Assembly: GCF_036227265.1 (NCBI RefSeq)
Contig: NZ_CP109446.1
Span: 7,333,001-7,397,000, forward strand
From: Streptomyces sp. NBC_01476
Lineage (GTDB): Bacteria > Actinomycetota > Actinomycetes > Streptomycetales > Streptomycetaceae
DNA: 64,000 nucleotides
Direction of reading: 5' to 3'
Within the stretch, counting starts at the first letter, position 1, and each line of letters starts with the position of its first letter. The translations under genes were made by a program, and so were the position numbers. This document shows positions 11,309 to 25,658 of this stretch, piece after piece. The notes beneath the pieces were generated by a model that searched no databases, had not been told where the DNA came from, and was given only the letters and a program-made list of their open reading frames with translations.

Positions 11309-14017
11309 ATGACGCAGACCCACGTCCAGGAGACCGGGGTACACGCCCTGCTCACCGACGGCACGACCGTACGCATCCGGCCGGTGCGGGCCGGGGACAC
11401 CGGCAGCGTCCTGAGACTGTACGAGGAGACGTCCGCCGAGCCCCCGCAGTCGCGCCTGTCGCAGGCGAACCGCGCCGCCGGGATACGGGCCGCCGAGCGG
11501 CTCTTCGGCCGGACCGCTCCCGCGCACCAGGCCCTGGTGGCCCTGCACGGTGAGCGGCTGGTCGGCGTGGCCGAGTACGACACCGCCGGGACCCCGGACA
11601 CCGCCGAGCTCTCCCTCGCCGTGACCGGCGGCTTCCGGCACCGCGGGGTCGGCACCCTGCTGCTGGAGCACCTCGCCGACGCGGCCCGCACCGCGGGCAT
11701 ACGCGCCTTCGCCGGCGGCATCCTCACCACCGACCAGCACCTGCGGCAGCTGATCACCGACCTCGGCATGGCGGTCGAACAGAAGCAGGAGGACGGCGAG
11801 GTGCGCTGCACCATCGCGCTCACCGAGGGCGAGCCCTACCTGTCGGCCGTCGACCGCCGCACCGGCACCGCCGACCGCGCCAGCCTGCGTCCCCTGCTGC
11901 GCCCGCGGTCGGTCGCCGTCATCAGCGCCGCGACCTCACCGACGTCGGTGGGCCACACCGTCCTGCGGAAGATCCACGACGGGGGCTTCACCGGGCAGGT
12001 GTACGCGGTCAATCCGCACGTCCAGGCGATCCTCGGCGCGCTCTGCCACCCGTCGATCACGGACCTGCCCCATCCGCCGGACCTGGCGGTCCTCGCCGTG
12101 CCCGCGGCCCTCGTGCCCGAGACCGCAGAACAGTGCGGTGCGGCCGGCGTCGGGGCGCTGGTGGTCCTGTCCGCGGGACTCGACACCGTCCAGGCCGTCA
12201 GGCTGAAGAGCGCCTGCCGGCACTACGGCATGCGCATGGTCGGCCCCGACTGCCTCGGGATCGCCGTGACGGACGAGGCCGTACGGCTGGACGCCACATT
12301 CGCGCCGCACCGGCCGCTCCCGGGCACCGCGGGGGTCGCCGTGCAGTCCGGCGGTGTCGGCACCGCGCTGCTCGGCGCGCTGACCCGGCTCGGCATCGGC
12401 GTCTCCGACTTCGTGTCACTCGGGGACAAACACGATGTCAGCGGCAACGACCTCCTGCACTGGTGGGAGCGCGACGGCCGCACCACGATGGCGCTGCTCC
12501 ACCTGGAGTCCTTCGGCAACCCGCGGGCCTTCGCCCGGACCGCACGGCGGGTCGCCCGGCGGATCCCGGTGCTGACCGTCGACGCCGGCCGGTCCGCCGT
12601 CACGGGGTCCACGGGCTCCGCGGGCTCTGCCGTGTCCCCCGGCTCCGCCGCGACTCCCACGATGAGCCGGCAGGCGCTGTTCACCCAGGCAGGCATCATC
12701 GCCACCGGCACGATCGGCGAACTCGTCGACACCGCCGCCCTGTTGCACGCCCAGCCGCTGCCCGCCGGCGCCCGCGTCGCCATCGTCTCGAACGCCGGCG
12801 GTGCGGCGGCGCTGGCCGCAGGCGCCTGCGGGGAAGCGGGACTGACCGTCCCGGATCTGCCGCGTGAACTGGTCGCCGAACTGCTGGACATCCTGCCGCC
12901 CGGCTCCGTGCCGGACAATCCGGTGGACGCGACTGCCGCGGTGGGGGAGAGGGCGCTGAGCGACTGCGTGGACCGGCTCAGCGCCCACGGGGCGGTGGAC
13001 GCGGTGATCGTCGTCCTCGCGCCCACCGCCCTGGCCGCGGCCACCGGCGACAATCCGCTGCAGGCGCTGATCAACACCGATCCGGACCGCCGGCCGCGCA
13101 CCGTCGCCGCCGTACTCCTCGACCAGGCCGAACAGGTCCGCCTGCTGCACGGCAGGCAGGGCAGTACGGTCCCGGCCTACGCCGACCCCCGCTCCGCCGC
13201 ACAGGCCCTCGCGCACGCCGCGGGCCGGGCCCACTGGCTGGCACGGCCCGCGGGTGCCCCGGCCGACACGGCGGACGCCGACCCGGCCGGAGCCCGGGCA
13301 GTCGTCGAGCACTTTCTCGGCGAGCACCCGGCCGGCGGCTGGCTCGACCCGGTGCGCTGCACGGAACTGCTCGCCCACTACCGGATCCCCCAACTCCCCA
13401 CCGCCTTCGCGGAGAACGAGAACCAGGCGGTCGAAGCGGCACACGACCTCACCGGCGGCGCCGGACGGGCGGCCCTCAAGGCGTACTGGCCGGGTCTGCG
13501 GCACAAGAGCGACCAGGGAGCCGTACTCCTCGACCTGGACGGAGACGACGCCGTCCGCGCCGCCTACCGCGACCTCGCCGCACGGTTCCGCGACGTCATG
13601 ACAGGTGTGGTCGTCCAGCCGATGGCACCGCGCGGCACCGAACTCGTCGCCGGAGTCACGCAGGACGACGTCTTCGGGCCTCTGGTCCTGTTCGGTCTCG
13701 GCGGTGCGGCGACCGACCTGCTCGGCGACCGCGCCGCCCGCCTGGCTCCCCTCGACCGGGCGGATCTGCGGGACCTGATCACCTCACCGCGGTGTGCGCC
13801 GCTGCTCTTCGGCTACCAGGCCGGCGGGCCCGCCGACCTCTACGGCCTGGAACGCCTGCTGGCGCACCTGTCGGCCATGGCCTGCGATCTGCCGCAGCTC
13901 GCCGAGGTCGACCTGGATCCCGTCGTCGCACGTCACGACGGCGTGACGGCGGTGGACGTCCGCATCCGTGTACTGCCACGACAACCCCGTGACCCCTACC
14001 TCCGCCGCCTGCGCTGA
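11309..14017 (+). CDS. GNAT / NDP-forming acyl-CoA-synthetase-like protein acetyltransferase
   Basis: A 902-residue three-part protein. Residues about 15-170 are a GNAT acetyltransferase (LSLAVTGGFRHRGVGTLLLE is the acetyl-CoA loop). Residues about 190-480 are the CoA-binding and ligase part of ADP-forming acyl-CoA synthetases (PRSVAVISAATSPTSVGHTV, GPDCLGI, VAVQSGGVGTALLG). From about 650 an ATP-grasp domain follows (ALKAYWPGLRHKSDQGAV). The architecture is that of Pat/PatZ lysine acetyltransferases with the GNAT at the N-terminus. Where true synthetases carry the phosphorylated His (SHTG), this protein reads SPGSA, so CoA ligase activity is probably lost and that part is regulatory. A likely target is acetyl-CoA synthetase. 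Confidence 0.88.
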   Translation: MTQTHVQETGVHALLTDGTTVRIRPVRAGDTGSVLRLYEETSAEPPQSRLSQANRAAGIRAAERLFGRTAPAHQALVALHGERLVGVAEYDTAGTPDTAELSLAVTGGFRHRGVGTLLLEHLADAARTAGIRAFAGGILTTDQHLRQLITDLGMAVEQKQEDGEVRCTIALTEGEPYLSAVDRRTGTADRASLRPLLRPRSVAVISAATSPTSVGHTVLRKIHDGGFTGQVYAVNPHVQAILGALCHPSITDLPHPPDLAVLAVPAALVPETAEQCGAAGVGALVVLSAGLDTVQAVRLKSACRHYGMRMVGPDCLGIAVTDEAVRLDATFAPHRPLPGTAGVAVQSGGVGTALLGALTRLGIGVSDFVSLGDKHDVSGNDLLHWWERDGRTTMALLHLESFGNPRAFARTARRVARRIPVLTVDAGRSAVTGSTGSAGSAVSPGSAATPTMSRQALFTQAGIIATGTIGELVDTAALLHAQPLPAGARVAIVSNAGGAAALAAGACGEAGLTVPDLPRELVAELLDILPPGSVPDNPVDATAAVGERALSDCVDRLSAHGAVDAVIVVLAPTALAAATGDNPLQALINTDPDRRPRTVAAVLLDQAEQVRLLHGRQGSTVPAYADPRSAAQALAHAAGRAHWLARPAGAPADTADADPAGARAVVEHFLGEHPAGGWLDPVRCTELLAHYRIPQLPTAFAENENQAVEAAHDLTGGAGRAALKAYWPGLRHKSDQGAVLLDLDGDDAVRAAYRDLAARFRDVMTGVVVQPMAPRGTELVAGVTQDDVFGPLVLFGLGGAATDLLGDRAARLAPLDRADLRDLITSPRCAPLLFGYQAGGPADLYGLERLLAHLSAMACDLPQLAEVDLDPVVARHDGVTAVDVRIRVLPRQPRDPYLRRLR

Positions 14018-14047
14018 GCAGCCGACCCGCACCCACAGGAGCGCACC

Positions 14048-14761
14048 ATGAAGCACCGCAAGGTCGGAAACGTCATGACCAGCGACGTCGTCCGGGTCCG
14101 GGAGACGACTCCGTTCAAGAAGGTGGCGGCTCTCCTGGCGCAGCACCGCATCAGCGGAGTCCCCGTCGTGGACGACGACGAGAAAGTGGTCGGCGTCGTC
14201 TCCGCGTCCGACCTGATCGCCCGCCAGGCCCAGGACGGCGAGGGGAGCCCCCACCACCGGTGGCCGCCGGCCTTCCGCACCACCGCGCCGGGGACCGAGG
14301 CCCTGACCGCCGGCCGGCTCATGTCCGCGCCGCCGGTGACCGTGCACGCCGACGAGTCGATCGCCGCCTCGGCCCGCACCATGGCCGAGCACCGGGTCGA
14401 GCGGCTGCCGGTCCTCGACGAGGAGGAACGGCTGGTCGGCATCGTCACCAGGCGCGACGTACTGCAGGTGTTCCTCCGCCCCGACGCCGACATCCGTGAG
14501 GACGTCATCCGGGACGTCTTCGTCCGCACCCTGTGGCTCACCCCGCTCGAAGCCGGGGTGAAGGTCACCGACGGTGTGGTCACCCTGGAAGGCAGGCTGG
14601 AGCGGGAGAGCGATGTGGCCATCGCCGGGCACGCGACCGCCAGGATCGACGGTGTCGTCGCCGTCGACAACCGCCTCACCAGCCGCTTCGACGACTCCCA
14701 CCTGCGGGCCGCCCAGTCGACGACGCACGGTGTCGCCGACAGGTGGCTCCACAGACTCTGA
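14048..14761 (+). CDS. CBS-pair and BON domain protein (2)
   Basis: A 237-residue paralogue of the protein at 6394. CBS motifs begin VGNVMTSDVVRVRETTPFKK (residue 6) and AGRLMSAPPVTVHADESIAA (about 92). The BON domain lies at about 155-220 (GVKVTDGVVTLEGRLERES). It starts 30 bp after the acetyltransferase stop, behind ACAGGAGCG, so it is probably in the same transcript. Adenine-nucleotide sensing is inferred from the family. Adjacency to an acetyl-CoA-using enzyme suggests an energy-charge input to protein acetylation, but nothing in the sequence proves it. Confidence 0.92.
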   Translation: MKHRKVGNVMTSDVVRVRETTPFKKVAALLAQHRISGVPVVDDDEKVVGVVSASDLIARQAQDGEGSPHHRWPPAFRTTAPGTEALTAGRLMSAPPVTVHADESIAASARTMAEHRVERLPVLDEEERLVGIVTRRDVLQVFLRPDADIREDVIRDVFVRTLWLTPLEAGVKVTDGVVTLEGRLERESDVAIAGHATARIDGVVAVDNRLTSRFDDSHLRAAQSTTHGVADRWLHRL

Positions 14762-14781
14762 AGGATCCGAAGGAGGCCATC

Positions 14782-15249
14782 ATGAGAACCGCCGCACCCA
14801 CCAACCTCTTCGCCGGCCTGCCGGGGCCGGGCCGTGAACGCCTGCTCGACCTCGGTCAGGACGTGTCCTTCCCGGCGGGCACCAGGATCTTCGAGGAAGG
14901 GGAGAACGCTGACCGCTTCTGGATCGTCCGCACCGGCTCGGTGACCTTGGACGTACCCGTCCCCGGCCGCCGGCCGGCCGTGGTGGAGACGCTCGGCCCC
15001 GGTGACCTGCTCGGCTGCTCCTGGCTCTTCCCGCCGTACACCTGGCACCTGGGAGCCGAGGCGCAGAGCGACGTACGCGCCCTGCTGTTCGACGCCACCG
15101 TGGTGCGCGCGCTGGGCCACGCCGACCTGGAGTTCGGCGAGGCGCTGGCCCGCCGGGTCGCCGCGATCATCGCCCACCGTCTGCAGAGCGCCCGGATCCG
15201 GCTGCTGGACCTGTACGGACCGTCCGTCGCGGGGAAGCACTCGCCATGA
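14782..15249 (+). CDS. Stand-alone cyclic-nucleotide-binding domain protein
   Basis: A 155-residue protein consisting of one Crp-type beta-roll ([55 protein letters not shown]). It ends shortly after the long helix ([20 protein letters not shown]). No helix-turn-helix follows, so it cannot bind DNA on its own in the Crp way. The start has AAGGAGG ahead. The usual phosphate-cassette residues are poorly conserved, and ligand binding is uncertain. Similar short proteins occur in actinobacterial dormancy clusters. It lies between a CBS-BON gene and the DevR-like regulator. Confidence 0.85.
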
Positions 15250-15418
15250 CCGGCGGTCCAGGACCGTCCGCGGCCTGACGCACGGGGGTCCGAGCGGTGG
15301 GACGGGCTGCCCAACGGTCCGTTCCACCCGTTCCACCCTGGTGCCGGGAGGCCCGCTGAGCGATGATCGGAGATCCAAGGCGGCATCGGGCCGGCAGACG
15401 ACAGATGAAGGTCCGCAC

Positions 15419-16117
15419 ATGGACGAGACAAGGCGATTCTCGGCAGACTCCCCGATCCGGGTCTTCCTTGTCGACGACCACGAGGTCGTACGGCGGGGCG
15501 TCCACGACCTTCTGGACGCCGAACCCGACATCGAGGTCGTGGGCGAGGCCGAGTCCGCCGGTCACGCCCTGGCCCGCGGACCGGCGCTGCGGCCCGACGT
15601 CGCGGTCCTTGACGTACGCCTCCCCGACGGCAACGGCATCGCGGTCTGCCGTGAACTGCGCTCCGCCATGCCGGCGCTGGCCTGCCTGATGCTCACCTCG
15701 TTCGACGACGACGACGCGCTGCTCGACGCGATCATGGCCGGCGCGGCCGGCTACGTACTGAAGCAGATCAGGGGCTCCGACCTGGTCTCGGCGGTCCGTA
15801 CCGTGGCCGCCGGCCAGTCGCTGCTCGACCCGGCCACCACCGCGCGCCTGATGAGCACCCTGCGTGCGGAGCGGCCCGGGGCCGATCCCGAGCAGGAGGC
15901 GCTGGCCGCGCTCTCTCCCCGCGAGCGCGAGATCCTCGGCCTGATCGGCGAGGGCCTCACCAACCGCCAGATCGGCAAGCAGCTCTTCCTCGCCGAGAAG
16001 ACGGTCAAGAACAACGTCTCCCGGCTGCTGGCCAAACTCGGCGTGGAGCGGCGCGTCCAGGCCGCCGTCATAGCCACCAACAGCGGCAACCCGGACACCG
16101 GCAACCCCCGCCGCTGA
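15419..16117 (+). CDS. devR: DevR/DosR/OsdR-like NarL-family response regulator, orphan
   Basis: A 232-residue response regulator. The receiver domain begins [20 protein letters not shown], and the phospho-acceptor is Asp65 in [13 protein letters not shown]. The LuxR-type HTH is near the C-terminus ([20 protein letters not shown], then [20 protein letters not shown]). This is close to mycobacterial DosR, including RLPDGNGI and FLAEKTVKN. DosR switches on the hypoxia/dormancy regulon, whose typical members (universal stress proteins, CBS proteins, flavoproteins) surround the gene. Unlike devRS or osdRK loci, no histidine kinase is adjacent. An upstream alternative start within the same frame is less likely. 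Confidence 0.93.
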
Positions 16118-16189
16118 CGCGGCGGCCAGGACCCGGCGCCGGCGTTCCGCCGAACCGGTGCGATCGGTGGGCCGGTCGGCCGCACGGAA

Positions 16190-16203
16190 GGACCTTTGGC
16201 CCC
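16190..16203. promoter_or_regulatory. DevR-box-like site upstream of the third usp
   Basis: GGACCTTTGGCCCC, preceded by A, agrees with the DevR core GGGACTWWAGTCCC at about 10 of 14 positions when aligned one base to the left. It lies 63 bp before the universal stress protein start. Assignment is inference. Confidence 0.4.
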
Positions 16204-16266
16204 TCCAGCGGCGTGCCCGAGGCGGCCAGGCTGAAATGGAGGAAGAGCGAACGAGGAGGTCGGGTC

Positions 16267-17178
16267 ATGACCCGCATCATCATCGCCGGCCTGGACGGTT
16301 CCCCGGAAAGTCTCGCCGCGGCCGACTGGGCCGCCCGTGAGGCGCTGCGCCAGGGACTGCCGCTGCGTCTGATCCACGCCGGCACATGGGAGCGCGCCGG
16401 GTACACCGCTCATGTGCCACGTGCCGACCCTGACCCGCGGCGGGATCAGGAGGAGCGGATTCCGCGTGATGCCAGGGCCGGTCTGCACCGCCGCTACCCG
16501 GATCTCCATGTGGAGGCCGACCAGATCTCGCAGCAGCCGGCGACCGCGCTGCTCTCCGCGGCGGAAGAGGGCGGGCTGCTCGTCCTGGGTTCGCGGAGGC
16601 TGAGCCCCGTCGCCGGATTCCTGGTCGGCTCGGTGGCGCACACGGTCGTCGCCAACGCGGTGCGGCCGGTGGTTCTGGTGCGCGCAGGCCAGGCGGAAGC
16701 GGACGAGCATCTGCCGGACCTCACGGGAAGCCGGTCCACCCGCTCCCGGTACCGAGACGTGGTGCTGGGTCTTGACCTCGCCAGGCCCGACGAGACCGTG
16801 CTCCGGTTCGCTTTCGAAGCCGCCGCCGGCCGGGTGGCACCGCTGCGTGTCGTGCACGGCTGGAACCCTCCGGCCTCCGTGGGCTACTCCGCGTTGGCCA
16901 TGGCGCCTGAGCTGACCGATGAGGTGAAGGCGGAGGAGGACGACGCCCTCGCGACCGCGCTGAGTCCCTGGCGGGAGAAGTATCCGGACGTCGCGGTCGT
17001 CGCCGAGGCCGTCATCGGCCCGCCCGCGCACCATCTGGTCGAGGCAGCCGCCAACGCCTCTCTGGTCGTTGTCGGCCGCCGCATGCGCGACGCGGGTACC
17101 GGCCCGTTCCTCGGCCCGGTCACCCACGCGCTGATGCACCGTTCTGCGGCGGCCGTCGCCGTCGTCCCGCACGACTGA
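16267..17178 (+). CDS. Universal stress protein, tandem UspA domains (3)
   Basis: A 303-residue double UspA protein. The ATG at 16267 stands behind GAGGAGGTCGGG; 18 upstream codons are open but lack a ribosome site. Domain one is TRIIIAGLDGSPESLAAADW with loop GSRRLSPVAGFLVGSVAH. Domain two is DVVLGLDLARPDET with loop GRRMRDAGTGPFLGPVTHA, and the protein ends in AVVPHD like the Usp at 3321. It immediately follows the DevR-like regulator and has a DevR-box-like site upstream, so direct activation is likely. It is convergent with the nuo operon. Confidence 0.93.
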   Translation: MTRIIIAGLDGSPESLAAADWAAREALRQGLPLRLIHAGTWERAGYTAHVPRADPDPRRDQEERIPRDARAGLHRRYPDLHVEADQISQQPATALLSAAEEGGLLVLGSRRLSPVAGFLVGSVAHTVVANAVRPVVLVRAGQAEADEHLPDLTGSRSTRSRYRDVVLGLDLARPDETVLRFAFEAAAGRVAPLRVVHGWNPPASVGYSALAMAPELTDEVKAEEDDALATALSPWREKYPDVAVVAEAVIGPPAHHLVEAAANASLVVVGRRMRDAGTGPFLGPVTHALMHRSAAAVAVVPHD

Positions 17179-17331: not shown

Positions 17332-18762
17332 TCAGCGCAGCAGCAGAGCTCCCGTGGTGAGCGGGAGGAGGGCGCCGCCGGCGATCCCGAGGGCGAGGGA
17401 GCCCGCGCCCGCGGTGTAGGCGGCCGCGGCGGCCCAGCGGCCCAGGACCGCTTGGGCGTCAGCGGCGAGGCCGTCGTCGGGGTCGGTCCGGAAGACCGGC
17501 CCGAGCCAGCGCAGGTAGTAGAAGAGGGACGCGACGGTGTTGACGACGGCGAGGACCGCGAGCCAGGTGCGGCCGCCGTCGACGGCGGCGCTGAAGACCT
17601 CGAGTTTGCCGAGGAAGACCCCCGTGGGCGGGGTCCCGACCAGGCCGAGGAGACAGATGACCAGGACGGCCGCGAGACCGGGGCGCCGGCGGCCCAGGCC
17701 GCGGTAGTCCTGCAGGGCCCGGGCGTGCGGCAGTTCGGTGACGACCGCGAAGACACCGAGGTTGGTGAGCGCGTAGGCCGCCAGATAGAAGAGCAGGCCC
17801 CGCTGGGCGAGGCCGCTCCGGGTGGCGACGGCCAGGGCCATCAGCAGATAGCCGGCCTGGCTGACGGTGGAGTAGGCGAGCAGCCGCTTGACGGAGGTCT
17901 GGAAGAACGCGGCGAGGTTGCCGAGGGTCATGGAGGCGGCGGCGAGAACGGCAAGCAGCAGCGGCCAGTTGACGTCGGTGCCGGACAGGGCCTGGTGGAG
18001 GAGACGGTACGCCGCGATCAGTCCGCCGGCCTTCGGCAGCGTGGTGACGTACCCGGCGACCGGGGCCGGCACGCCGTCGGTGACGTCGGGGACCCAGAAG
18101 TGCGCCGGCACGCCGCCGATCTTGAACAGCAGCCCGGCCAGGACGGCGACGAAACCGACGGCGACCAGGCCGTAGGAGGCGCCCGGCAGGGCCGTGCGCA
18201 GTCCTGCGTAGCCGGTGGCGTGGCCCGCCCCGTACAGTACCGCGGTCCCCGCCAGCATCACGGCGCCCAGTAAGGCGCCCACCAGGTAGTACTTCAGGGC
18301 CGCTTCGGTGCTCGCCGCGTCCTTGGCGAAGCCGGCCAGCGCGTAGGCCGGGATGCTCGCCAGCAGGTAGCCCGCGAAGGCCATCAGCAGGTCGTTGGCG
18401 CCGATCATGGCGAGTGTGCCCGCCGCGGAGAGCAGCAGCAGTACGTAGTACTCGGTCTCACGTTTGTGCCGGCGTACGGTCTCCACCGACATCATCAGCA
18501 CCAGCAGGAGAGCGCCGAGCACCGTCAGGCGCCCCATTCCGGTGGCGGCGTCCACCGCGAAGGTGCCGCTGAACACCGTCTGCTGCCGGCCGGTGGCCAT
18601 GGTCACCGCCGTGCAGACCAGCCCGGTCACGCAGGCCACCGCGGCCAGCACCCCGACCGCCCTCTGGCGGCGGCGGGGCAGCCACGCTCCGGCGACCAGG
18701 CCGATCACCGCCGCGGCCACCAGCGCGATCTCGGGGAGCAGGGCGGCCAGATTCTGGTTCAC
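17332..18762 (-). CDS. nuoN: Complex I membrane subunit NuoN-like
   Basis: A 476-residue antiporter-like subunit starting at a GTG that overlaps the nuoM stop by 4 bp. The proton-channel core is present: GYLLASIPAYALAGFAKDAA, EAALKYYLVGALLGAVMLAG, LLFKIGGVPAHFWVPDVTDG and SVKRLLAYSTVSQAGYLLMA. It is the last gene of the nuo operon. It normally forms the pumping module next to NuoK in the membrane arm. The frame stays open for 1150 more codons upstream, but that part is arginine-rich shadow of nuoM and nuoL. Confidence 0.93.
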   Translation of the reverse strand: MNQNLAALLPEIALVAAAVIGLVAGAWLPRRRQRAVGVLAAVACVTGLVCTAVTMATGRQQTVFSGTFAVDAATGMGRLTVLGALLLVLMMSVETVRRHKRETEYYVLLLLSAAGTLAMIGANDLLMAFAGYLLASIPAYALAGFAKDAASTEAALKYYLVGALLGAVMLAGTAVLYGAGHATGYAGLRTALPGASYGLVAVGFVAVLAGLLFKIGGVPAHFWVPDVTDGVPAPVAGYVTTLPKAGGLIAAYRLLHQALSGTDVNWPLLLAVLAAASMTLGNLAAFFQTSVKRLLAYSTVSQAGYLLMALAVATRSGLAQRGLLFYLAAYALTNLGVFAVVTELPHARALQDYRGLGRRRPGLAAVLVICLLGLVGTPPTGVFLGKLEVFSAAVDGGRTWLAVLAVVNTVASLFYYLRWLGPVFRTDPDDGLAADAQAVLGRWAAAAAYTAGAGSLALGIAGGALLPLTTGALLLR

Positions 18763-20261
18763 CGGGCGACCAGTCCCACCACGGTGCGGCTCGCGGGTTC
18801 GACGACATCCAGCAGGAAGCGGGGGAGCACCCCGATGACCAGGGCCAGGAACAGCAGCGGGACGATCGCGGACGACTCGGCGGCGGCCAGATCGCCGAAG
18901 CCGCCGGCACCGGTGGACGCCGGCAGCCGCTCGGGGCCGAGGAACATCTGGCGCAGAGCACGCAGGAACAGGGCCGCGGTGAGCAGGATTCCGGTCAGGG
19001 CGATGCCGGTGGCGGTGGCCTGGGAGGCGAGGCTGCCGGTGAAGATCTGGAACTCGGCGGTGAAGCCGGACAGGCCCGGGATGCCGAGGCTGCCGAAAGC
19101 GGCCACCGCGGTGAGGGCGGCGAACCGCGGTGAGGGCCCGGCGAGCCCCGAGTAGGCGCCGATGGCGTACGTGCCGCCGCGGTCGTGGAGCACACCGGAG
19201 AGCAGGAAGAGCGCCCCGGTGAGCAGCCCGTGACTGACCATCTGGGTGACCGCGCCGGTCACCGCCAGGGACCGGGCCTGGGTGTCGGTCCCCGCGAGCA
19301 CCCCGGCGGCGCCGACGGCCAGGATCACATAACCCATGTGGTTGACGCTGGTGTAGGCGATCATGCGTTTGAAGTCCGTCTGCGCCAGGGCGACCAGGGC
19401 GCCGTAGACCACCGACACGGCTCCGACGACGATGAAGACCAGGGCGTAATGCCGCCAGCTGCCGGGCAGCATCGGCATCGCGATCCGCAGGAATCCGTAG
19501 GTGCCCATCTTCAGCAGCACCCCGGCGAGGACGGCGGAGCCGGTCGCGGGCGCTTCGCTGTGCGCCGGAGGCAGCCAGGTGTGGAACGGCACGGTCGGGG
19601 TCTTGACCGCGAGACCGACGCCGACCGCCAGCAGGACCAGGGCCGCGTAGGCGCCGCGGCCCGCCAGAGGAGCGGTACGGGTCAGCTCGACGATGTCGAA
19701 GGTGTGCGGCGAGGCGGCCAGGTACAGGCCGATGAAGCCCAGCAGCAGCGCCAGCGACCCGGTGAAGGTGCAGAGGAAGAACTTCAGCGCCGCCGCCCGC
19801 GCCGCCGCACCATTGCCCCAGCCCGCGATGACGAAGAACATGCCCGCGATCGCCAGGTCGAAGAAGACGAAGAACAAGATCAGGTCGAGCGCGACGAACA
19901 GCCCCACGCAGACCGTCTGCAGGAACAGGAACAGGCACACGTAGGCACGCACCCGGCGGGTCTCGCGCAGCGCGTAGACGGCGACGGCGAGGAACAGCAC
20001 GCACGTCAGCGCCACCAGCGGCAGGGACAGTCCGTCCACCCCGACGTGGTAACCGACGCCGGCGCCGGGAATCCAGCGCGCCCGCTCCTGGTACTGCGTC
20101 CCGCCGCCGGTGTCGAAACCCGCCCACACCGCGACGACCAGCGCGAGGTCGGCCGCGGCGGCGCCCACCCAGGTCCACCGGTAGACCCGGTCGGGCAGGG
20201 CACGCAGCCCCAGCAGCACGGCGCAGACGAGCAGCGGCAGGAAGGTGATGACGGTCAGCAC
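18759..20261 (-). CDS. nuoM: Complex I membrane subunit NuoM-like
   Basis: A 500-residue antiporter-like subunit. It begins MLTVITFLPLLVCAVLLGLR and carries the quinone-oxidoreductase core (VKTPTVPFHTWLPPAHSEAP, LLKMGTYGFLRIAMPM, DFKRMIAYTSVNHMGYVILA). Length and motif order are normal for NuoM. The start is 6 bp after the nuoL stop and the end overlaps nuoN by 4 bp, so translation is coupled. It should work as a proton-pumping part of the membrane arm. Confidence 0.95.
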   Translation of the reverse strand: MLTVITFLPLLVCAVLLGLRALPDRVYRWTWVGAAAADLALVVAVWAGFDTGGGTQYQERARWIPGAGVGYHVGVDGLSLPLVALTCVLFLAVAVYALRETRRVRAYVCLFLFLQTVCVGLFVALDLILFFVFFDLAIAGMFFVIAGWGNGAAARAAALKFFLCTFTGSLALLLGFIGLYLAASPHTFDIVELTRTAPLAGRGAYAALVLLAVGVGLAVKTPTVPFHTWLPPAHSEAPATGSAVLAGVLLKMGTYGFLRIAMPMLPGSWRHYALVFIVVGAVSVVYGALVALAQTDFKRMIAYTSVNHMGYVILAVGAAGVLAGTDTQARSLAVTGAVTQMVSHGLLTGALFLLSGVLHDRGGTYAIGAYSGLAGPSPRFAALTAVAAFGSLGIPGLSGFTAEFQIFTGSLASQATATGIALTGILLTAALFLRALRQMFLGPERLPASTGAGGFGDLAAAESSAIVPLLFLALVIGVLPRFLLDVVEPASRTVVGLVAR

Positions 20262-20267
20262 GGGCGG

Positions 20268-22166
20268 TTACCTCACCAACAAGGCGATCAGGGTCAACAC
20301 CGCGAAGCTGACCGCGGCCTGGGTGTAGTACTGGTGCAGCAGCCCGGTCTGCGGGCGGCGCGCCCACCTGCCGAGCCGGCGCGCGCCCGCGGCGGTCGCG
20401 CGCACCAGGGCGTCGATGCCGTCGTCGTCGAGCCGGGCGGCGGTCCGCGCCGCCGCGAGGCCGCCGCGGGCGGTCATCCGCACCGCCCCGTCCACGATCC
20501 GGTCGTCGAAGGCGGCCACCGCCCGGGCCAGGCCGAGCACCGGGCGTACGACCAGGGCGTGCGCGGCCCGTTCGAGGTGGAGCCATCCTGCCGCCCATTC
20601 CCGCAGGACGCCGGGGACCGGTACGAGGCGGCCTCCCCACCACCACGCGAGCGCCCCGGCCCCCAGGGCGACCCCGGCGGACAGGCCGAACTGCCAGGGA
20701 CGCGGGCCGGCTTCGCCGGACGCCCCGACCGTGTCCGCCAGCGCGGCGGAGACACCCGGCAGCGCCAGCACGCCGAGCGTGGCCGCGGCGAAGGCGAGCA
20801 GGAGCAGCGGCGGGCGCATCGCGGGGGCGACCTTCCGGGTGCCGGTCTCTTCGGTGTCGTAGCGGGCCCCGGCGTCCCCGGCGCCTCCGGCGTCCTCGGC
20901 GTCCTCCGGCAGCGGGCGCAGCACGTACCAGAGGGCCTTGACGCTGTAGCCGGCCGAGACCGCGGCAGCCGCGAGGCCGACCGCGTACAGGGCGGCATCC
21001 TCGTGGTGAGCGGCGGCCAGGGTCTCGTCCTTGGTCGCCCACAGGGACAGCGGCGGCAAGCCGGCGAGCGTCAGCGCCCCGAGGGTGAACGCGATTCCCA
21101 CTACCGGGTACGCACGCGCGGCGCTGCGCAGCGCGGTGAGCCGCTTGGTGCCCAGTGCGCTCAGCCAGGCGCCCGCGGCGAGGAACAGCCCGGCCTTGGT
21201 CGCCGCGTGCGCGACGAGTTGGGCCGTTCCGGCCGCCACACCGCCGCTGCCTGCCGCGAGCACGATGAATCCGACCTGGGCGCAGGTGGAAGCCGCCAGC
21301 AGTTGCTTGAGATCGGGCTGCGCGACCGCGACCACACCCAGTGCCAGCGCGGTGGCGGCCCCGGTCCAGGCGACCAGCGGCCCGGCCCAGCCGGTCGCGG
21401 CCAGCAGCGGATGGAGCCGCAGCAGCAGATACGCCCCGGCGGCGACCATGGTGGCCGAGTGGAGGAGCGCGGAGACCGGGCTGGGTCCCTGCATGGCCCG
21501 CGACAGCCAGAAGGAGAAGGGGAGTTGGGCCGACTTGCCGGCGGCGGCCAGCACCACGCCGGCCGTCACCACGTGGAGCCACGGCGTACCGGGGTCCGCC
21601 AGCCTGTCGAGTCGCAGGGAACCCGCGCCGCCCGCCACCGCGGCGCCGGCCGCCAGATACAGGCCGAGGTCGGCGGTCCTGGTGGTGAGGAAGGCGGCGT
21701 CCGCGGCCCGCACCCGGTGCTCCTGCCGCCACCGGAAACCGATCAGAGCCCAACTGGTGGCCCCCATCACCTCCCAGGCCATCAGCAGCAGCGCCAGCGT
21801 GGTCGCGGTGACCGTGACCAGCATCGCGCCGGCGAACAGCAGCATCAGCCCGAAGAACCGGCCGCGGTCCGCGCTCTCTTCGAACTCGCCGGCCGAGAAG
21901 AGCAGCACACAGGCGGTCACCGCGGCGACCGTGATCACCATGACGGCGGACAGCCCGTCCACCCGCAGCCCGGCCCTGACCCCGGCGAACAGCGGTGCGC
22001 TCACGGCGGGCCGGGCGACCGCCGCGCCGACGGCCAGACCCAGCGTGACGACCGCGGCGGCGACACCGGCCCAGGAAGCGGCGCCGTCGGCGCGCCGGCC
22101 CGCAAGAGCGAGCCCCGCCCCGGCGCCGAGCGGTACGGCGGTCAAGAGCCACAGCAGGGCGCTCAT
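20268..22166 (-). CDS. nuoL: Complex I membrane subunit NuoL-like
   Basis: A 632-residue distal pump subunit. Its core includes LLMAWEVMGATSWALIGFRW, AAAGKSAQLPFSFWLSRAMQ (the HTWL-type helix), DLKQLLAASTCAQVGFIVLA and GLPPLSLWATKDETL. A long hydrophilic stretch after about residue 440 and an amphipathic C-terminal part correspond to the lateral helix region. It is convergent with nothing, is preceded by nuoK with a 4-bp overlap and lies upstream of nuoM. It is somewhat more diverged than standard NuoL, as expected for a second-type complex. Confidence 0.93.
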   Translation of the reverse strand: MSALLWLLTAVPLGAGAGLALAGRRADGAASWAGVAAAVVTLGLAVGAAVARPAVSAPLFAGVRAGLRVDGLSAVMVITVAAVTACVLLFSAGEFEESADRGRFFGLMLLFAGAMLVTVTATTLALLLMAWEVMGATSWALIGFRWRQEHRVRAADAAFLTTRTADLGLYLAAGAAVAGGAGSLRLDRLADPGTPWLHVVTAGVVLAAAGKSAQLPFSFWLSRAMQGPSPVSALLHSATMVAAGAYLLLRLHPLLAATGWAGPLVAWTGAATALALGVVAVAQPDLKQLLAASTCAQVGFIVLAAGSGGVAAGTAQLVAHAATKAGLFLAAGAWLSALGTKRLTALRSAARAYPVVGIAFTLGALTLAGLPPLSLWATKDETLAAAHHEDAALYAVGLAAAAVSAGYSVKALWYVLRPLPEDAEDAGGAGDAGARYDTEETGTRKVAPAMRPPLLLLAFAAATLGVLALPGVSAALADTVGASGEAGPRPWQFGLSAGVALGAGALAWWWGGRLVPVPGVLREWAAGWLHLERAAHALVVRPVLGLARAVAAFDDRIVDGAVRMTARGGLAAARTAARLDDDGIDALVRATAAGARRLGRWARRPQTGLLHQYYTQAAVSFAVLTLIALLVR

Positions 22167-22468
22167 CCCTTGAGGTCCTGGGCCGCGTCGGCCATGTCCA
22201 CCTGCCGGGCACGGAAGATCGCGGTCGTGACGGCGAAGCCGATCGCCATCTCCACCGCCATCGCGACCAGCGCCGCGACGACGACCACCTGCCCGCTTCC
22301 CGTGGCGGGGGCGAGAAAGTGCCAGAAGGCGGCGGCGCCGACGACGATGCCGCCGATCATCAGCTCGATCCCCATCATGATCATGACGATCGACTGCTGG
22401 GACAGCGCCCCGAACAGGCCGATCGAGAAGAGCCCGGCCGCCAGCAGCAGGAACAGCTCCAGGATCAC
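22163..22468 (-). CDS. nuoK: Complex I membrane subunit NuoK-like
   Basis: A 101-residue, three-helix protein of exact family length. It begins MILELFLLLAAGLFSIGLFG, followed by IVMIMMGIELMIGGIVVGAA with the conserved Glu of helix 2 and a second Glu in AVEMAIGFAV of helix 3. Both glutamates are needed for proton translocation in characterised NuoK. It overlaps nuoJ and nuoL by 4 bp each. Confidence 0.95.
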   Translation of the reverse strand: MILELFLLLAAGLFSIGLFGALSQQSIVMIMMGIELMIGGIVVGAAAFWHFLAPATGSGQVVVVAALVAMAVEMAIGFAVTTAIFRARQVDMADAAQDLKG

Positions 22469-23025
22469 CGGCCCACCCCTCCGCCCACCGGGTCGCGCGC
22501 CGGACGCTGATCGAGGTCGTCGCCGAACCGGTCGTACCGCCCCCGTCGCGTGGCCAGTACGGTGGCCCCCACCATCGTGGCCAGCAGGACGAACCCGAGC
22601 GTGATCATCGTCAGCATCTGGCCGCCCATCAGCGACTCACCCAGCTGGAACGTCGTGTCCGCGGGCCGGGTGCCGGTCCGCTCCGGCCACCGCACCAGCA
22701 GGATGCCGGCGGCCAGCGCGACGAAGACCCCGGCACTGATGACAAGCGAGCCCCGCTTGTTGTGGACCATCGACATCTGCGTCAGGCCGGCCGGATCCAT
22801 CATGTAGGCGACCATGAACACCGCCATGACGACCATCTCCATCACCATCATCAGCACGGTGACCAGGCCCAGATAAGGCAGCCCCAGCACCACCACCTCG
22901 CCGCCGGCACAGACCAGCGACGCCAGCAGCGCGAACGTCGCGCGCGCCATCGAACCGACGGAGAACACCAGCAGGGCGGCCACCAGGGCGAGGACGGCAA
23001 GCACCCCGAACAGCACAGCGGACAC
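22465..23025 (-). CDS. nuoJ: Complex I membrane subunit NuoJ-like
   Basis: A 186-residue protein starting at a GTG (SAVLFGVLAVLALVAALLVF) with TAGGAGAAC 6 bp ahead; the longer frame to 23286 runs into nuoH and is rejected. The helix GLPYLGLVTVLMMVMEMVVM corresponds to the pi-bulge helix 3 of NuoJ. Two further hydrophobic helices follow (SLVISAGVFVALAAGILLV; MLTMITLGFVLLATMVGATV). It ends with a charged tail. It starts 11 bp after nuoH. Confidence 0.92.
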   Translation of the reverse strand: MSAVLFGVLAVLALVAALLVFSVGSMARATFALLASLVCAGGEVVVLGLPYLGLVTVLMMVMEMVVMAVFMVAYMMDPAGLTQMSMVHNKRGSLVISAGVFVALAAGILLVRWPERTGTRPADTTFQLGESLMGGQMLTMITLGFVLLATMVGATVLATRRGRYDRFGDDLDQRPARDPVGGGVGR

Positions 23026-23036
23026 GGACCGTTCTC

Positions 23037-23966
23037 CTACCGGTTGAGTACGACCAACGCCGGCACCAGAGCCTGGAGGACGGCCAGCGGGACGAGGACG
23101 ACCCAGGCGAACTCCACGTACCGGTCGGCACGGACCATCGGAAACCGCCGCTGTATGCACACCAGCGCCACCAGTACGGCCAGGGTCTTGAGCAGCGACC
23201 ACGCCCAGGGGGCCGGCCCGGGCCCCGCACCGCCGCCCAGGAACAGCGGCACCGCCATGGCCGCGCCGGCCGCCAGCCACAGCCACCGGCCCGCCTGCAG
23301 GAGCAGGCGGTCGGCGCCGCTGGTGTCTCCCAGTACCCCGCCGGCGATGTCACGGCCCGCCGGGTAGGAGAACGGGCCGAGGAAACTGAACGCCGACACG
23401 CTCGTCAGAAAGACCGCGAAGGCGAACGGCATCCAGACCGCGAACCACAAGCCGTGCTGGGCGGCGACCACACCGCCCACCCGCAACGACTGCGCTCCGG
23501 TCGCCGCCGAGATCAGCGCGAACATCAACGGCAGCTCGTACGCGAGGCCCTGAGCGAGATACCGGTAGCCGCCGATCAGGGAGAAGGCCGCGTTCTGCCC
23601 CCACCCGGACATCCACAGCCCCGCCCAGGTCAGGACCTCCATCGCGTTGAACCACACCACGCCCACCGAGAGGTCACCGACGGTGCGCCGCCCGAACGGG
23701 ACGACCAGGACCGCCAGCACCGCGGCCACCGGTACGGTCACCACGCCTGCCCGCCGCAGCAACGTGTCCGAGGACGGCGTACGCCGCGGCTGCGCCACCA
23801 GCAGCCGCGGCACCTCCAGCAGCCGGCGCCCCGCCGTGACCACGCCGGCCGGCCGGCCCGCCTCCCGTGCGATCAGCAACGCGTCGGCGGCCACCGCGAA
23901 CACCGCGAGAGCCGGCAGCAGGGCCGGGGCGACGAACAGCGACCACCAGGGAGCGGCGTCAACCAC
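23037..23966 (-). CDS. nuoH: Complex I membrane subunit NuoH-like
   Basis: A 309-residue protein of the NuoH family, starting at GTG with a short overlap with the upstream gene. Eight or so hydrophobic helices are present. Recognisable parts include FSLIGGYRYLAQGLAYELPL, the equivalent of the quinone-cavity helices, and RRFPMVRADRYVEFAWVVLV, which matches the end of NuoH (RxxxPRxRxDQLMxxxWK). Some conserved charged residues differ from canonical NuoH, consistent with a divergent type of complex. NuoH normally connects the peripheral quinone-reducing arm to the pumps. Confidence 0.9.
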   Translation of the reverse strand: MVDAAPWWSLFVAPALLPALAVFAVAADALLIAREAGRPAGVVTAGRRLLEVPRLLVAQPRRTPSSDTLLRRAGVVTVPVAAVLAVLVVPFGRRTVGDLSVGVVWFNAMEVLTWAGLWMSGWGQNAAFSLIGGYRYLAQGLAYELPLMFALISAATGAQSLRVGGVVAAQHGLWFAVWMPFAFAVFLTSVSAFSFLGPFSYPAGRDIAGGVLGDTSGADRLLLQAGRWLWLAAGAAMAVPLFLGGGAGPGPAPWAWSLLKTLAVLVALVCIQRRFPMVRADRYVEFAWVVLVPLAVLQALVPALVVLNR

Positions 23967-25317
23967 GGGCCGCCGCCGGGAGTTGAGCCGCGAGTTCGTC
24001 CGGGTCCGGGTCGAGGCTGGCGACGATGAGGCGGGCCGCCGCCACTTCGGCTCCCGCCAGCAGGCGCGGGAGCACGGCCGCGAGGGCGGCGGACGGCGGG
24101 CGCGGCCCGTCGAGCCGGCCGCGGGGGCCGTGGGGGGCGGCAGGGTCGTGCGGGCTTCGATCGTCCGGCCGGCGTTGATCGGACGGCCGGCTGTGATCGT
24201 CCGGCCTGTCCTGATCGGCCCGCCGGTTCCGGTCGTTCCGCCTGTCCCGGTCGTCCCGCCTGTCCTGATCGTTCGGCCGGCTGTGGTCGTACAGTCGGCG
24301 CCGGTCGCCGAGCGGGCGCCGGTCGTTCAGCCGGGTCCGGTCGTCAAGCCGGGCTACGTCGTCGACCACAGCGGTGAGCCACTCCCGGTAGCGGGCGGGC
24401 ACGTCGCCGTCCGCGCGGGCCGCAGGACCGCTCACGCCGGCGGCCTCCGCTTCCGCCCGGGAGAGTTCTCCCATGCCGCGGGTCAGCCAGTACAGGGTGC
24501 GGGACCGGCCGGTCCGCCGGGCGAACCGCTCGGCCCGCGGCCGGACGGCGGCGGCTTCCGCCCCCGCCACCAGGTCGTCGCGCAGCCGGCGCGCCGCGGT
24601 GGCCTGCCCGGGCCAGCCCGCCACCGCCAGGAACCGGCCCAGACTGTCCAGATGGGCGGCGGCCCTGCGGCGGGCGGCTTCGCCCAGCAGCACCTCTTCG
24701 CCCGCCGCGGCCCGCGTCCACGGCTCGGTCCAGTACGGGGAGACGGCCGCGGTGGCCCCCCACAGGGACTCCGCGAGGTCGGCCCGCTGGATCACGTCGC
24801 CCTGGAGAGTGAGACGCATCGTCAGACCGGCGGGCCAGTCGGGAAGGAAAGGACCGAAGGAGAGGTGGACTCTGTCCAGGGCCAGGCCGTCGCGGTCCGG
24901 GCCCCGTTCGGCCATCGCCGGGCCGGCCGGCATCCCCGTCCCGTCACCGTGGCCCCCGCCGTGGTGGTGGGTGCCCTCGCCATGGCCCTCGATGCCGGGC
25001 CGGGGCAGTGGCGTGGCCAGTGACACGCGGGACGCCGCGACCGCCGCGGCGACCTCGTCCGCCGTCCGCGCGTGCGCCCGGACCCGGGGAGCGGGCATGT
25101 CCCGCCACAACCGGTCGACCGCGGGCTCCAACGACGGGCCGACGGCGCCCGCGACGAACAGGACGTTCGCCTCCGCCGGGGTACGGGCCTCGGGCAGATC
25201 CCGTCGCCGCAGCTCCCGTTCGGCCGCCAGCCGTACCGCGGTCGCGCCCGGCATCGTGAGCAGCAGTACGCGCGGCCGGGCCGCGGTCGCGCGCAGCAGC
25301 ACAGCCCTCAGGTCCAT
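23959..25317 (-). CDS. Cysteine-free NuoB/NuoD-related fusion protein
   Basis: A 452-residue hydrophilic protein between nuoA and nuoH, where nuoB-C-D would be expected. Residues about 48-75 (ANVLFVAGAVGPSLEPAVDR, LWRDMPAPR) look like the middle of NuoB. Residues about 150-185 (DRVHLSFGPFLPDWPAGLTM, RLTLQGDVIQRAD) look like the start of NuoD. TRGMGELSRAEAEAAGVSGP near 290 resembles a later NuoD segment. A His-rich linker (HGEGTHHHGGGHGDG) joins the halves. The protein has no cysteine at all, so it cannot hold the N2 iron-sulfur cluster. About 11 hexapeptide repeats rich in Asp and Arg follow near 325-390. It probably caps the membrane arm; a catalytic role is doubtful. Confidence 0.7.
   Translation of the reverse strand: MDLRAVLLRATAARPRVLLLTMPGATAVRLAAERELRRRDLPEARTPAEANVLFVAGAVGPSLEPAVDRLWRDMPAPRVRAHARTADEVAAAVAASRVSLATPLPRPGIEGHGEGTHHHGGGHGDGTGMPAGPAMAERGPDRDGLALDRVHLSFGPFLPDWPAGLTMRLTLQGDVIQRADLAESLWGATAAVSPYWTEPWTRAAAGEEVLLGEAARRRAAAHLDSLGRFLAVAGWPGQATAARRLRDDLVAGAEAAAVRPRAERFARRTGRSRTLYWLTRGMGELSRAEAEAAGVSGPAARADGDVPARYREWLTAVVDDVARLDDRTRLNDRRPLGDRRRLYDHSRPNDQDRRDDRDRRNDRNRRADQDRPDDHSRPSDQRRPDDRSPHDPAAPHGPRGRLDGPRPPSAALAAVLPRLLAGAEVAAARLIVASLDPDPDELAAQLPAAARG
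24155..24350 (-). repeat. 18-bp imperfect tandem repeats encoding Asp/Arg hexads
   Basis: About eleven 18-bp units encode hexapeptides such as RDDRDR, RNDRNR, RADQDR and PDDHSR near the C-terminus of the NuoB/D-like protein. The units vary in sequence but keep period and frame, so this is an expanded charged linker. Confidence 0.8.
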
Positions 25318-25658
25318 CGCAGCGCACCTTCCCGCCAGGCGTGGGCGACACCGGCAAGCAGCACCGTGAGGAAGGTGAACATCTCGATCACCGCGCTGGG
25401 CCCCATGGCGGAGATGACCCGTGTCCACGGGTACATGAAGACCATCTCCATGTCGAAGGCCAGGAAGAACATCGTGACGGTGTACCAGCGCGGATGGAAG
25501 CGGCTCACCGCGTGCTCGCTCGGCTCAAAACCGGAACCGAACGGCTGGGCGACCAGCGGGTCCGACGTCACCCGGAGCCACCGGGCAGCGCCGTAGACCC
25601 CGCCCACCGCGAGCAGCGCCACGCCGAGCAACGACAGGGCCGCGGTGAACCCGCTCAC
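25308..25658 (-). CDS. nuoA: Complex I membrane subunit NuoA-like
   Basis: A 116-residue, three-helix protein. It has the NuoA signatures [20 protein letters not shown], the first matrix loop, and [20 protein letters not shown] with VFMYPW, the helix 2 motif. The Cys of the usual YECG loop is replaced (FGSGFEP). It is the first gene of the minus-strand operon and overlaps the next gene by 10 bp. Confidence 0.94.

Follow-up and report, generated by a model that had tools for sequence, protein, structure and literature searches.

What function is left to a complex I membrane arm that has been parted from its electron-input modules is the question raised by an eight-gene operon of Streptomyces sp. 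NBC_01476. The operon lies in a 64,000-nucleotide stretch of contig NZ_CP109446.1 (positions 7,333,001 to 7,397,000; referred to as the window, in which position 1 is the first letter) at 7.33-7.40 Mb of the 8.4-Mb single-contig genome, and reads nuoA-X-nuoH-nuoJ-nuoK-nuoL-nuoM-nuoN on the minus strand from 25658 down to 17332, X being the designation used here for the protein encoded between nuoA and nuoH. All seven Nuo subunits (A, H, J, K, L, M and N) were named by Pfam, so that the membrane arm set of complex I is present (Pfam/NCBIfam), and Pfam detected no NuoC, NuoI, NuoE, NuoF or NuoG encoded in the window operon; none lies between nuoA and nuoN in the clusters of its relatives. These coordinates and domain assignments bear out an initial annotation, made from the sequence alone, of an operon with nuoA, H, J, K, L, M and N and without nuoB-G and nuoI. 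The operon encodes a full complex of the complex I superfamily that has no redox function, placed in a branch with many copper-associated members, and we slightly favor the view that it encodes a proton-driven exporter of Cu(I).

Protein X is encoded at 23959..25317 on the minus strand (ATG at 25317, stop at 23959), directly after a nuoA-like gene of 116 residues (25308..25658, minus strand; Pfam Oxidored_q4, E 3.1e-25), and consists of 452 residues with no cysteine. Scanned as a single sequence, X gave only sub-threshold matches to NuoB (residues 35-78, E 0.029) and NuoD (residues 269-304, E 0.13), each in the expected place. A profile built from 21 members of the X family and compared with PDB sequences matched Thermus NuoB (E 1.9e-5), along with numerous further chains of the NuoB type, and more weakly NuoD-type chains (E 0.015-0.032), with one of the latter matches reaching near the NuoD C-terminus. 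Among these 21 proteins, 15 matched the Pfam NuoD model at E up to 1 (best E 7e-5), and 12 matched one NuoB model (best E 8.1e-5) and 11 another (best E 2.6e-5); from a more distant set of ten X proteins, six passed Pfam's own NuoD cut-off. The AlphaFold model of X (25-sequence alignment; predicted local distance difference test (pLDDT) 81.2, predicted template modeling score 0.79) superimposed on mycobacterial NuoD with a Z of 23.3 and a root mean square deviation of 2.7 over 237 residues (model residues 138-444), and residues 1-105, folded separately (pLDDT 90.0), matched chains of the NuoB type from complex I, formate hydrogenlyase, MBH and MBS (Foldseek, best E 1.8e-4). The NuoB/NuoD-like nature proposed for the 452-residue protein in the initial annotation, which had named structure prediction as a check, is thus upheld by profile and fold alike.

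From the N-terminus, X comprises a NuoB-like domain without iron-sulfur (Fe-S) cysteines (residues 1-105, 25003..25317, minus strand), a His/Met-containing linker (residues 105-140, 24898..25005, minus strand) that includes the His-rich stretch noted earlier (residues 111-126), and a NuoD-like part (about residues 140-446, 23980..24900, minus strand) that retains a NuoD-like C-terminus. The HPSTHG motif, present in an orphan NuoD of the same host, gives way to GPxLxxWPxG in the X proteins of the Streptomyces family (PFLPDWPAG in the window copy), and the HPxTHG quinone-site motif is absent from X and also from the distant X sequences that were read. The four cysteines that bind cluster N2 in NuoB are missing from X, and there is no invariant cysteine column in the family alignments; likewise, the NuoD-like part of X, being free of cysteine, has none of the cysteine ligands of the NiFe site of energy-converting [NiFe] hydrogenases. 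Complete absence of cysteine, emphasized in the initial annotation, holds for the window copy and is not a family-wide trait, as the X frames read in relatives contain 0 to 8 cysteines. Since no cysteine is invariant and HPSTHG is replaced, neither N2 nor a normal quinone site can be present in X, which, as judged from its sequence and as first suggested, is a NuoB/NuoD relic predicted to be unable to hold N2 or to receive electrons in the usual way. The window copy also carries an Arg/Asp-rich low-complexity insert (DDRDRRNDRNRR and similar; window about 24136-24330, X residues about 330-394) that is missing from most relatives. On two Pseudonocardia plasmids (L129 and L165), the annotation of X does not begin until the DRDGL region (212 codons in L129), the NuoB-like part being missing from the annotated product through either mis-annotation or real loss.

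A pattern scan of one genome per species (84,980 species), which recovers close relatives, identified 27 relatives of X, all in Streptomyces. The order X-H-J-K was kept in all 27, nuoL, nuoM and nuoN came next in the 26 that reach them (one contig stops after nuoK), and nuoA precedes X in 26, the remaining contig beginning inside X; the genes flanking these loci mostly differ from one locus to another. When the search for X was widened to 396 genomes of the phylum, matches were listed for 203, most of them brief matches with ordinary NuoB at about positions 36-82, and reading of 18 regions revealed clusters of the same order in other actinobacteria, so that the survey of actinobacterial clusters proposed in the initial annotation recovered the same X-bearing arrangement within and beyond Streptomyces. 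In addition, a plasmid search found 21 records that encode a close NuoM, including plasmids of Halomonas, Acuticoccus and Roseivivax (Pseudomonadota). Of these, 18 were opened (H6, H7 and H9, from M. avium and of the same identity as H5, were left out), and the whole set from nuoA to nuoN was annotated in 16, one of them with a split X; one of the other two had no annotated nuo gene and one had part of the set only. The split X is that of a Pseudarthrobacter plasmid (L166, 3551-6947), interrupted by an IS3 element. The two records with unannotated or partial nuo genes, from Rhodococcus (L167) and Ornithinimicrobium (L168), encode a close NuoM all the same, which may reflect either broken copies or gaps in the gene table. 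In a tree of NuoJ plus NuoK, 52 family members grouped together on a long branch (support 0.96), with the Pseudomonadota copies forming one clade (0.93) nested in the family.

Residues of the proton path and of the quinone side were surveyed in E. coli numbering across 26-27 Streptomyces relatives. In NuoL (632 residues, 20268..22166, minus strand), E144, D178, K229, H254, K305, H338, K342, K399 and D400 were kept in 26 of 26 relatives, and H334 is Gln in 22; the window copy retains the listed residues except H334, which is Gln. NuoM (500 residues, 18759..20261, minus strand) keeps K234, H241, K265, R273, H322, H348 and E407 in all 26, with Asp in place of E144 throughout, the window copy included. 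NuoN (476 residues, 17332..18762, minus strand) keeps E104, E154, K158, K217, H224, K247 and K395 in all 26; E133, whose loss stands out most among the antiporter-type residues that were compared, is Leu and H305 is Gln in all 26, and the window copy shows the same two changes with its lysines retained. E36 of NuoK (101 residues, 22163..22468, minus strand) was kept in 27 of 27, E72 is Glu in 23 and Asp in four, and R25/R26, on the quinone side, are Gln in all 27; the window copy retains the E36 and E72 equivalents. In NuoH (309 residues, 23037..23966, minus strand), E157 was kept in 27 of 27 and in the window copy, and E228 is Glu in all 27 and Asp in the window copy. On the quinone side of NuoH, E36 is Glu in one of 27 relatives, D72 is kept in none, D213 in one and E216 in none, and E218 corresponds to a gap; all five are gone from the window copy. 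The pump side is largely intact and the quinone side dismantled.

NuoJ, NuoK and NuoA also have fixed residues of metal-ligand type. NuoJ (22465..23025, minus strand) has a Met-rich third helix, MMVMEMVVMAVFMVAYMM, with a new Glu. We compared 52 family members (the window copy, 27 Streptomyces, 16 distant and eight plasmid copies, ten plasmid loci fetched later being left out) with 33 canonical sequences, one of which repeats the host nuo1. In NuoJ, M27, M60, M65, M68, M72, M76, M77, M85, M87, M138, E64 and H89 were present in all 52 family members, M61 in 51 and M134 in 42 (numbering starts at window 23028 and is one higher than from the GTG at 23025), whereas each of these residues occurs in 0 or 1 of the 33 canonical NuoJ; the Met fraction of NuoJ is 0.091 in the family versus 0.029 in canonical sequences. 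M29, M31 and M70 of NuoK were found in 52 of 52 family members versus 0 of 33 canonical sequences, and His55, Met72 and Met75 of NuoA in 51 of 51 family members; the latter three are absent from three canonical NuoA. The fixed Met and His residues of NuoJ, NuoK and NuoA are all present in the window copy, and NuoH, NuoL, NuoM and NuoN contain less Met than the three canonical sequences with which each was compared. An assignment of NuoJ as an Mrp-type subunit was rejected, as the nine chains that its profile listed in the PDB were of the NuoJ/ND6 type only, all from complex I/NDH-type enzymes.

The linker of X, too, may bind metal. The heavy-metal-binding domain PF19335 was detected above the cut-off in X of all five Rubrobacter-type loci, twice in one of them, and sits between the NuoB and NuoD parts of these longer proteins (frames of 620-786 codons as read); two named Rubrobacter plasmid copies of X are annotated as heavy metal-binding domain proteins. 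In many other relatives, a His/Met-rich linker such as MDHGSMDHGGMDMPMP occupies the same place.

Genes for copper resistance are frequent around the distant and plasmid relatives. In a frame-independent scan for copper-type genes (CsoR, HMA, metal P-type ATPase and multicopper oxidase), such genes lay within 6 kb of 10 of 17 distant, 14 of 18 plasmid and 5 of 28 Streptomyces loci, as compared with 0 of 20 control loci (Fisher 5.6e-5, 3.2e-7 and 0.066, respectively), where the hidden Markov models drew on genes from some test loci, which match by construction, and the controls were stretches at hand-picked positions in 14 of these genomes (chromosomal or unplaced, not plasmid-matched), 12 kb as against 8-10 kb long. 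Several of the distant clusters that were read adjoin CsoR, metal ATPase, CopZ-like, DUF305, CopD or multicopper oxidase genes, and the top Pfam families among 72 flanking genes of 16 distant loci were HMA (7), CsoR (6), E1-E2 ATPase (5) and Hydrolase (5), in a table of the 25 commonest of 62 families from which L092 and L102 were left out by hand and an X fragment of L103 was dropped. Among 100 genes of the 20 control stretches, no copper family was found within the 25 commonest of 140 families. By annotation, 14 of the 18 opened plasmid copies have copper or heavy-metal genes nearby, one has DUF305 only and three have none. On the Halomonas plasmid (L124), egtB and egtD, for ergothioneine synthesis, directly follow nuoN on the same strand (14803-17075) within a copper-resistance region. 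Among the titles and abstracts listed by open-access literature searches on copper or CsoR with nuo or NADH-quinone oxidoreductase, we found no link of this cluster to copper. The available text of two papers touches on copper: the carriers listed in one include an isolate of mine fluids rich in copper (PMC6676996), and the copper resistance gene copD and nuo genes are both counted among marine adaptation genes, in two different genome regions (PMC6002675).

Some copies may be under the control of a copper sensor. The type-2 consensus of Streptomyces CsoR is given as ATATACCCCTNAGGGGTATAT in the part of PMC3902906 that was available, and CsoR-type sites upstream of nuoA fit this S. lividans consensus. 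Searching for the core TRCCCC-N3-GGGGYA with up to one mismatch at most 350 bp upstream of nuoA, we found sites at 10 of 27 Streptomyces, 2 of 17 distant and 3 of 16 plasmid loci, or 15 of 60, in a scan that excluded L049 and L167 (no nuoA match) and L171 and in which L126 has almost no upstream sequence. At the Streptomyces loci, site density was 1.06 per kb upstream of nuoA versus 0.019 per kb in the rest of these sequences. The sole exact site in the host genome, at 3.204 Mb, directly precedes a gene pair that we take, from its motifs, to be copZ-copA-like; the exact operator pattern is not over-represented genome-wide in this host (one site versus three per strand for a reversed control pattern).

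Because the membrane core is rich in methionine and the relatives lie among copper-resistance genes, we propose a role in copper transport. In the proposed mechanism, X would be what remains of the old Q-module (NuoB plus NuoD), a scaffold covering NuoH and NuoA on the cytoplasmic side, and its His/Met-rich linker, or the heavy-metal-binding domain of the Rubrobacter type, would bind metal and pass it on. Fixed methionines in NuoJ, NuoK and NuoA would have turned the former quinone-to-pump channel into a route for Cu(I). Protons would flow inward via NuoL, NuoM and NuoN, the retained chain of charged residues and NuoK would transmit the drive to Cu(I) (or Ag(I)) on the Met/Glu/His path in NuoJ, NuoK and NuoA, and the metal would be expelled outward. 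We infer the placing of X, metal binding, transport itself, the ion, its direction and the coupling from the patterns described above, and on these grounds a proton-driven Cu(I) exporter is somewhat the likelier description of the operon. For the broader proposal, in which a complex I membrane machine was re-purposed as a Cu(I) pump, loaded by X, lined with methionines in the NuoJ/NuoK/NuoA channel, emptied by protons and spread across phyla on copper-island plasmids, we regard the balance as even.

Several observations weigh against export of copper. The window copy has no copper-type gene within 6 kb, and its nuoA promoter has no CsoR-type site (best match 7 of 10), so this copy must be otherwise controlled or constantly expressed. 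Copper linkage is weak within Streptomyces as a whole: in addition to the 5 of 28 loci in the 6-kb scan, HMA, with 2 of 100 flanking genes, was the sole copper family among the 25 commonest of 113 at 22 of the 28 loci (L028, L033, L040, L042, L049 and L052, near duplicates or short, were left out). Copper-type genes were likewise not found by the 6-kb scan at 7 of 17 distant and 4 of 18 plasmid loci, nor CsoR-type sites at 45 of the 60 loci scanned, and most streptomycete sites have TGC at one end, where an intact TAC/GTA pair is reported to be needed for CsoR binding (available part of PMC3902906). The eight positions on the third transmembrane helix of NuoJ show, as a set, no significant preference for one face (1326 of 20000 random sets were as good), and methionine can have other roles. 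Three plasmid copies appear broken or incompletely annotated. Finally, many of the compared sequences are closely related and a few loci occur in two sets (L094 and L170 are apparently one plasmid record, counted once per set, and L126 and L171 come from one strain), so the counts are not counts of independent events. The Streptomyces subset, including the window copy, may have shifted to another metal or use.

The main rival to a Cu(I) exporter is a copper-induced, redox-free proton or cation/proton antiporter, in which metal bound to X would sense or gate and the complex would guard pH or membrane potential under copper stress. The retained antiporter-type residues, the position of the metal-binding parts of X in a hydrophilic subunit, the copper gene context of the relatives and the potassium-channel-family genes that adjoin two plasmid copies are all consistent with it. 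It leaves unexplained, however, why methionine, a soft-metal ligand, should be fixed specifically in NuoJ, NuoK and NuoA, and we consider it possible and, on the whole, unlikely. Of the three outcomes envisaged in the initial annotation (a dead complex, a pump driven by a partner or an antiporter derived from complex I), the antiporter came nearest, and the copper context, the metal-binding domain and the Met-rich core of NuoJ, NuoK and NuoA had not been foreseen.

A second alternative is a salt or osmotic adaptation system that moves protons or sodium, as has been suggested in the literature for this partial nuo operon in Salinispora, Kocuria and sponge Streptomyces; in the available text of these papers, proton or sodium transport for salt adaptation is proposed, nuoAHJKLMN is associated, as "marine adaptation genes", with marine or salty sources (PMC3314556, PMC4018334, PMC6002675, PMC6676996), and an arrangement nuoA-hypothetical-H-J-K-L-M-N is described (PMC6676996). 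Judged by gene order, the published operon has the same gene set and order as that of the window. The protein after nuoA is merely "hypothetical" there (white genes without UniProt or PDB homologs, according to the legend seen) and the function is ascribed to salt, whereas here the protein is a NuoB/NuoD fusion and many of the relatives have a copper context; in the portions available, the salt papers identify neither the nature of the hypothetical protein nor a copper context. No description of the cluster was found in the accessible part of PMC12361115, consulted for incomplete complex I. The scores of NuoL, NuoM and NuoN against Mrp-type models fit ion transport of this kind, and yet relatives in soil and sputum isolates adjoin copper or heavy-metal genes; a role in salt adaptation is improbable.

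The third alternative is a redox pump that draws electrons from subunits of other complex I clusters or from another redox partner. The host has a nuo1 cluster (A, B, C, D and H-N plus three genes in the place of E, F and G), a nuo2 cluster (G000:C1:4921419-4931125; A, B, C, H and I-N, without D, E, F and G) and an orphan nuoD of 380 codons (3346925-3348067), 1.6 Mb from nuo2; nuo2 and the orphan nuoD perhaps form an 11-subunit complex I. Since canonical nuoB, nuoC, nuoD and nuoI genes lie elsewhere in the host, a normal complex I is present as well. Intact genes of this kind were held in the initial annotation to count against a self-contained complex if they completed it, and they do exist; nevertheless, X occupies the NuoB/NuoD place and the quinone-side residues of NuoH are gone in nearly all 27 relatives, so subunits lent by nuo1 or nuo2 were rejected. 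A partner such as a hydrogenase or a formate dehydrogenase, also raised there, was likewise rejected: the hydrogenase-like large and small subunit genes of the host (G000:C1:8270195-8273542) are unlinked, about 0.9 Mb from the operon, and a formate dehydrogenase lies near the Halomonas copy as a single case. Fe-S/FAD oxidase families, which speak for electron input, account for 2 of 100 Streptomyces flanking genes, and no recurrent electron-transfer gene was seen beside the cluster among the 25 commonest flanking families of the distant and Streptomyces loci. At two loci (L036 and L045), a large FAD/Fe-S oxidase-type gene of about 1000 codons lies on the same strand 1.3 and 2.5 kb upstream of nuoA; it was not seen to recur beside other copies. 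Electron input of any such origin is very unlikely. A dead or dying complex, for which X as the most changed part, the X split by IS3 and two other plasmid copies without several annotated genes might be cited, is scarcely credible and was rejected on account of the conserved order and of residues that are invariant across phyla, in agreement with the earlier view that the intact pump subunits speak against decay.

Downstream of the operon, on the opposite strand, the window contains (11309-17178) a 902-codon gene and genes of the CBS, cyclic-nucleotide-binding, response regulator and universal stress protein types, the last labeled by Pfam and the other four by eye. This set resembles dormancy or hypoxia regulons and might hint at the control of the window copy.

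How complex I links its quinone site to remote proton channels is one of the key unanswered questions about this enzyme. If a Cu(I) exporter has indeed arisen by discarding the redox module and rebuilding the channel with metal ligands, it would be a minimal system for asking of what the membrane arm is capable by itself, and bacterial copper resistance might gain a further, proton-driven route. New here are the copper context of the relatives, the metal domain of X, the NuoJ Met pattern and the CsoR-type sites; the published accounts of the partial operon lack the identity of X. The proposal also re-reads an operon that is named NADH-quinone oxidoreductase in sequence records and discussed in papers as salt adaptation.

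The relation to known systems can be stated as follows. Like respiratory complex I (NDH-1), the operon has the membrane arm A, H, J, K, L, M and N with most proton-path residues; unlike it, the operon has no C, E, F, G or I, its NuoB and NuoD are fused and have no Fe-S or quinone motifs, and its NuoJ and NuoK are Met-rich. Mrp-type antiporters, which have subunits of the L/M/N type, are related to the membrane arm of complex I and work without redox chemistry. In contrast to these, the window operon keeps NuoH, NuoA and a relic of the Q-module, its NuoJ profile matches complex I/NDH-type chains only, Pfam found no MrpE/F/G-type match among the eight operon proteins, and NuoL, NuoM and NuoN score best as Nuo when set against Mrp-type models. 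The copper transporters Ctr1 and CusA have Met-lined paths, and CopA ATPases likewise carry soft-metal ligands in the membrane. The operon described here shares with them residues of soft-metal ligand type in the membrane and, for some copies, a putative copper-sensor control; it differs in being built from other protein families, and an antiporter chain of the complex I type would power its transport.

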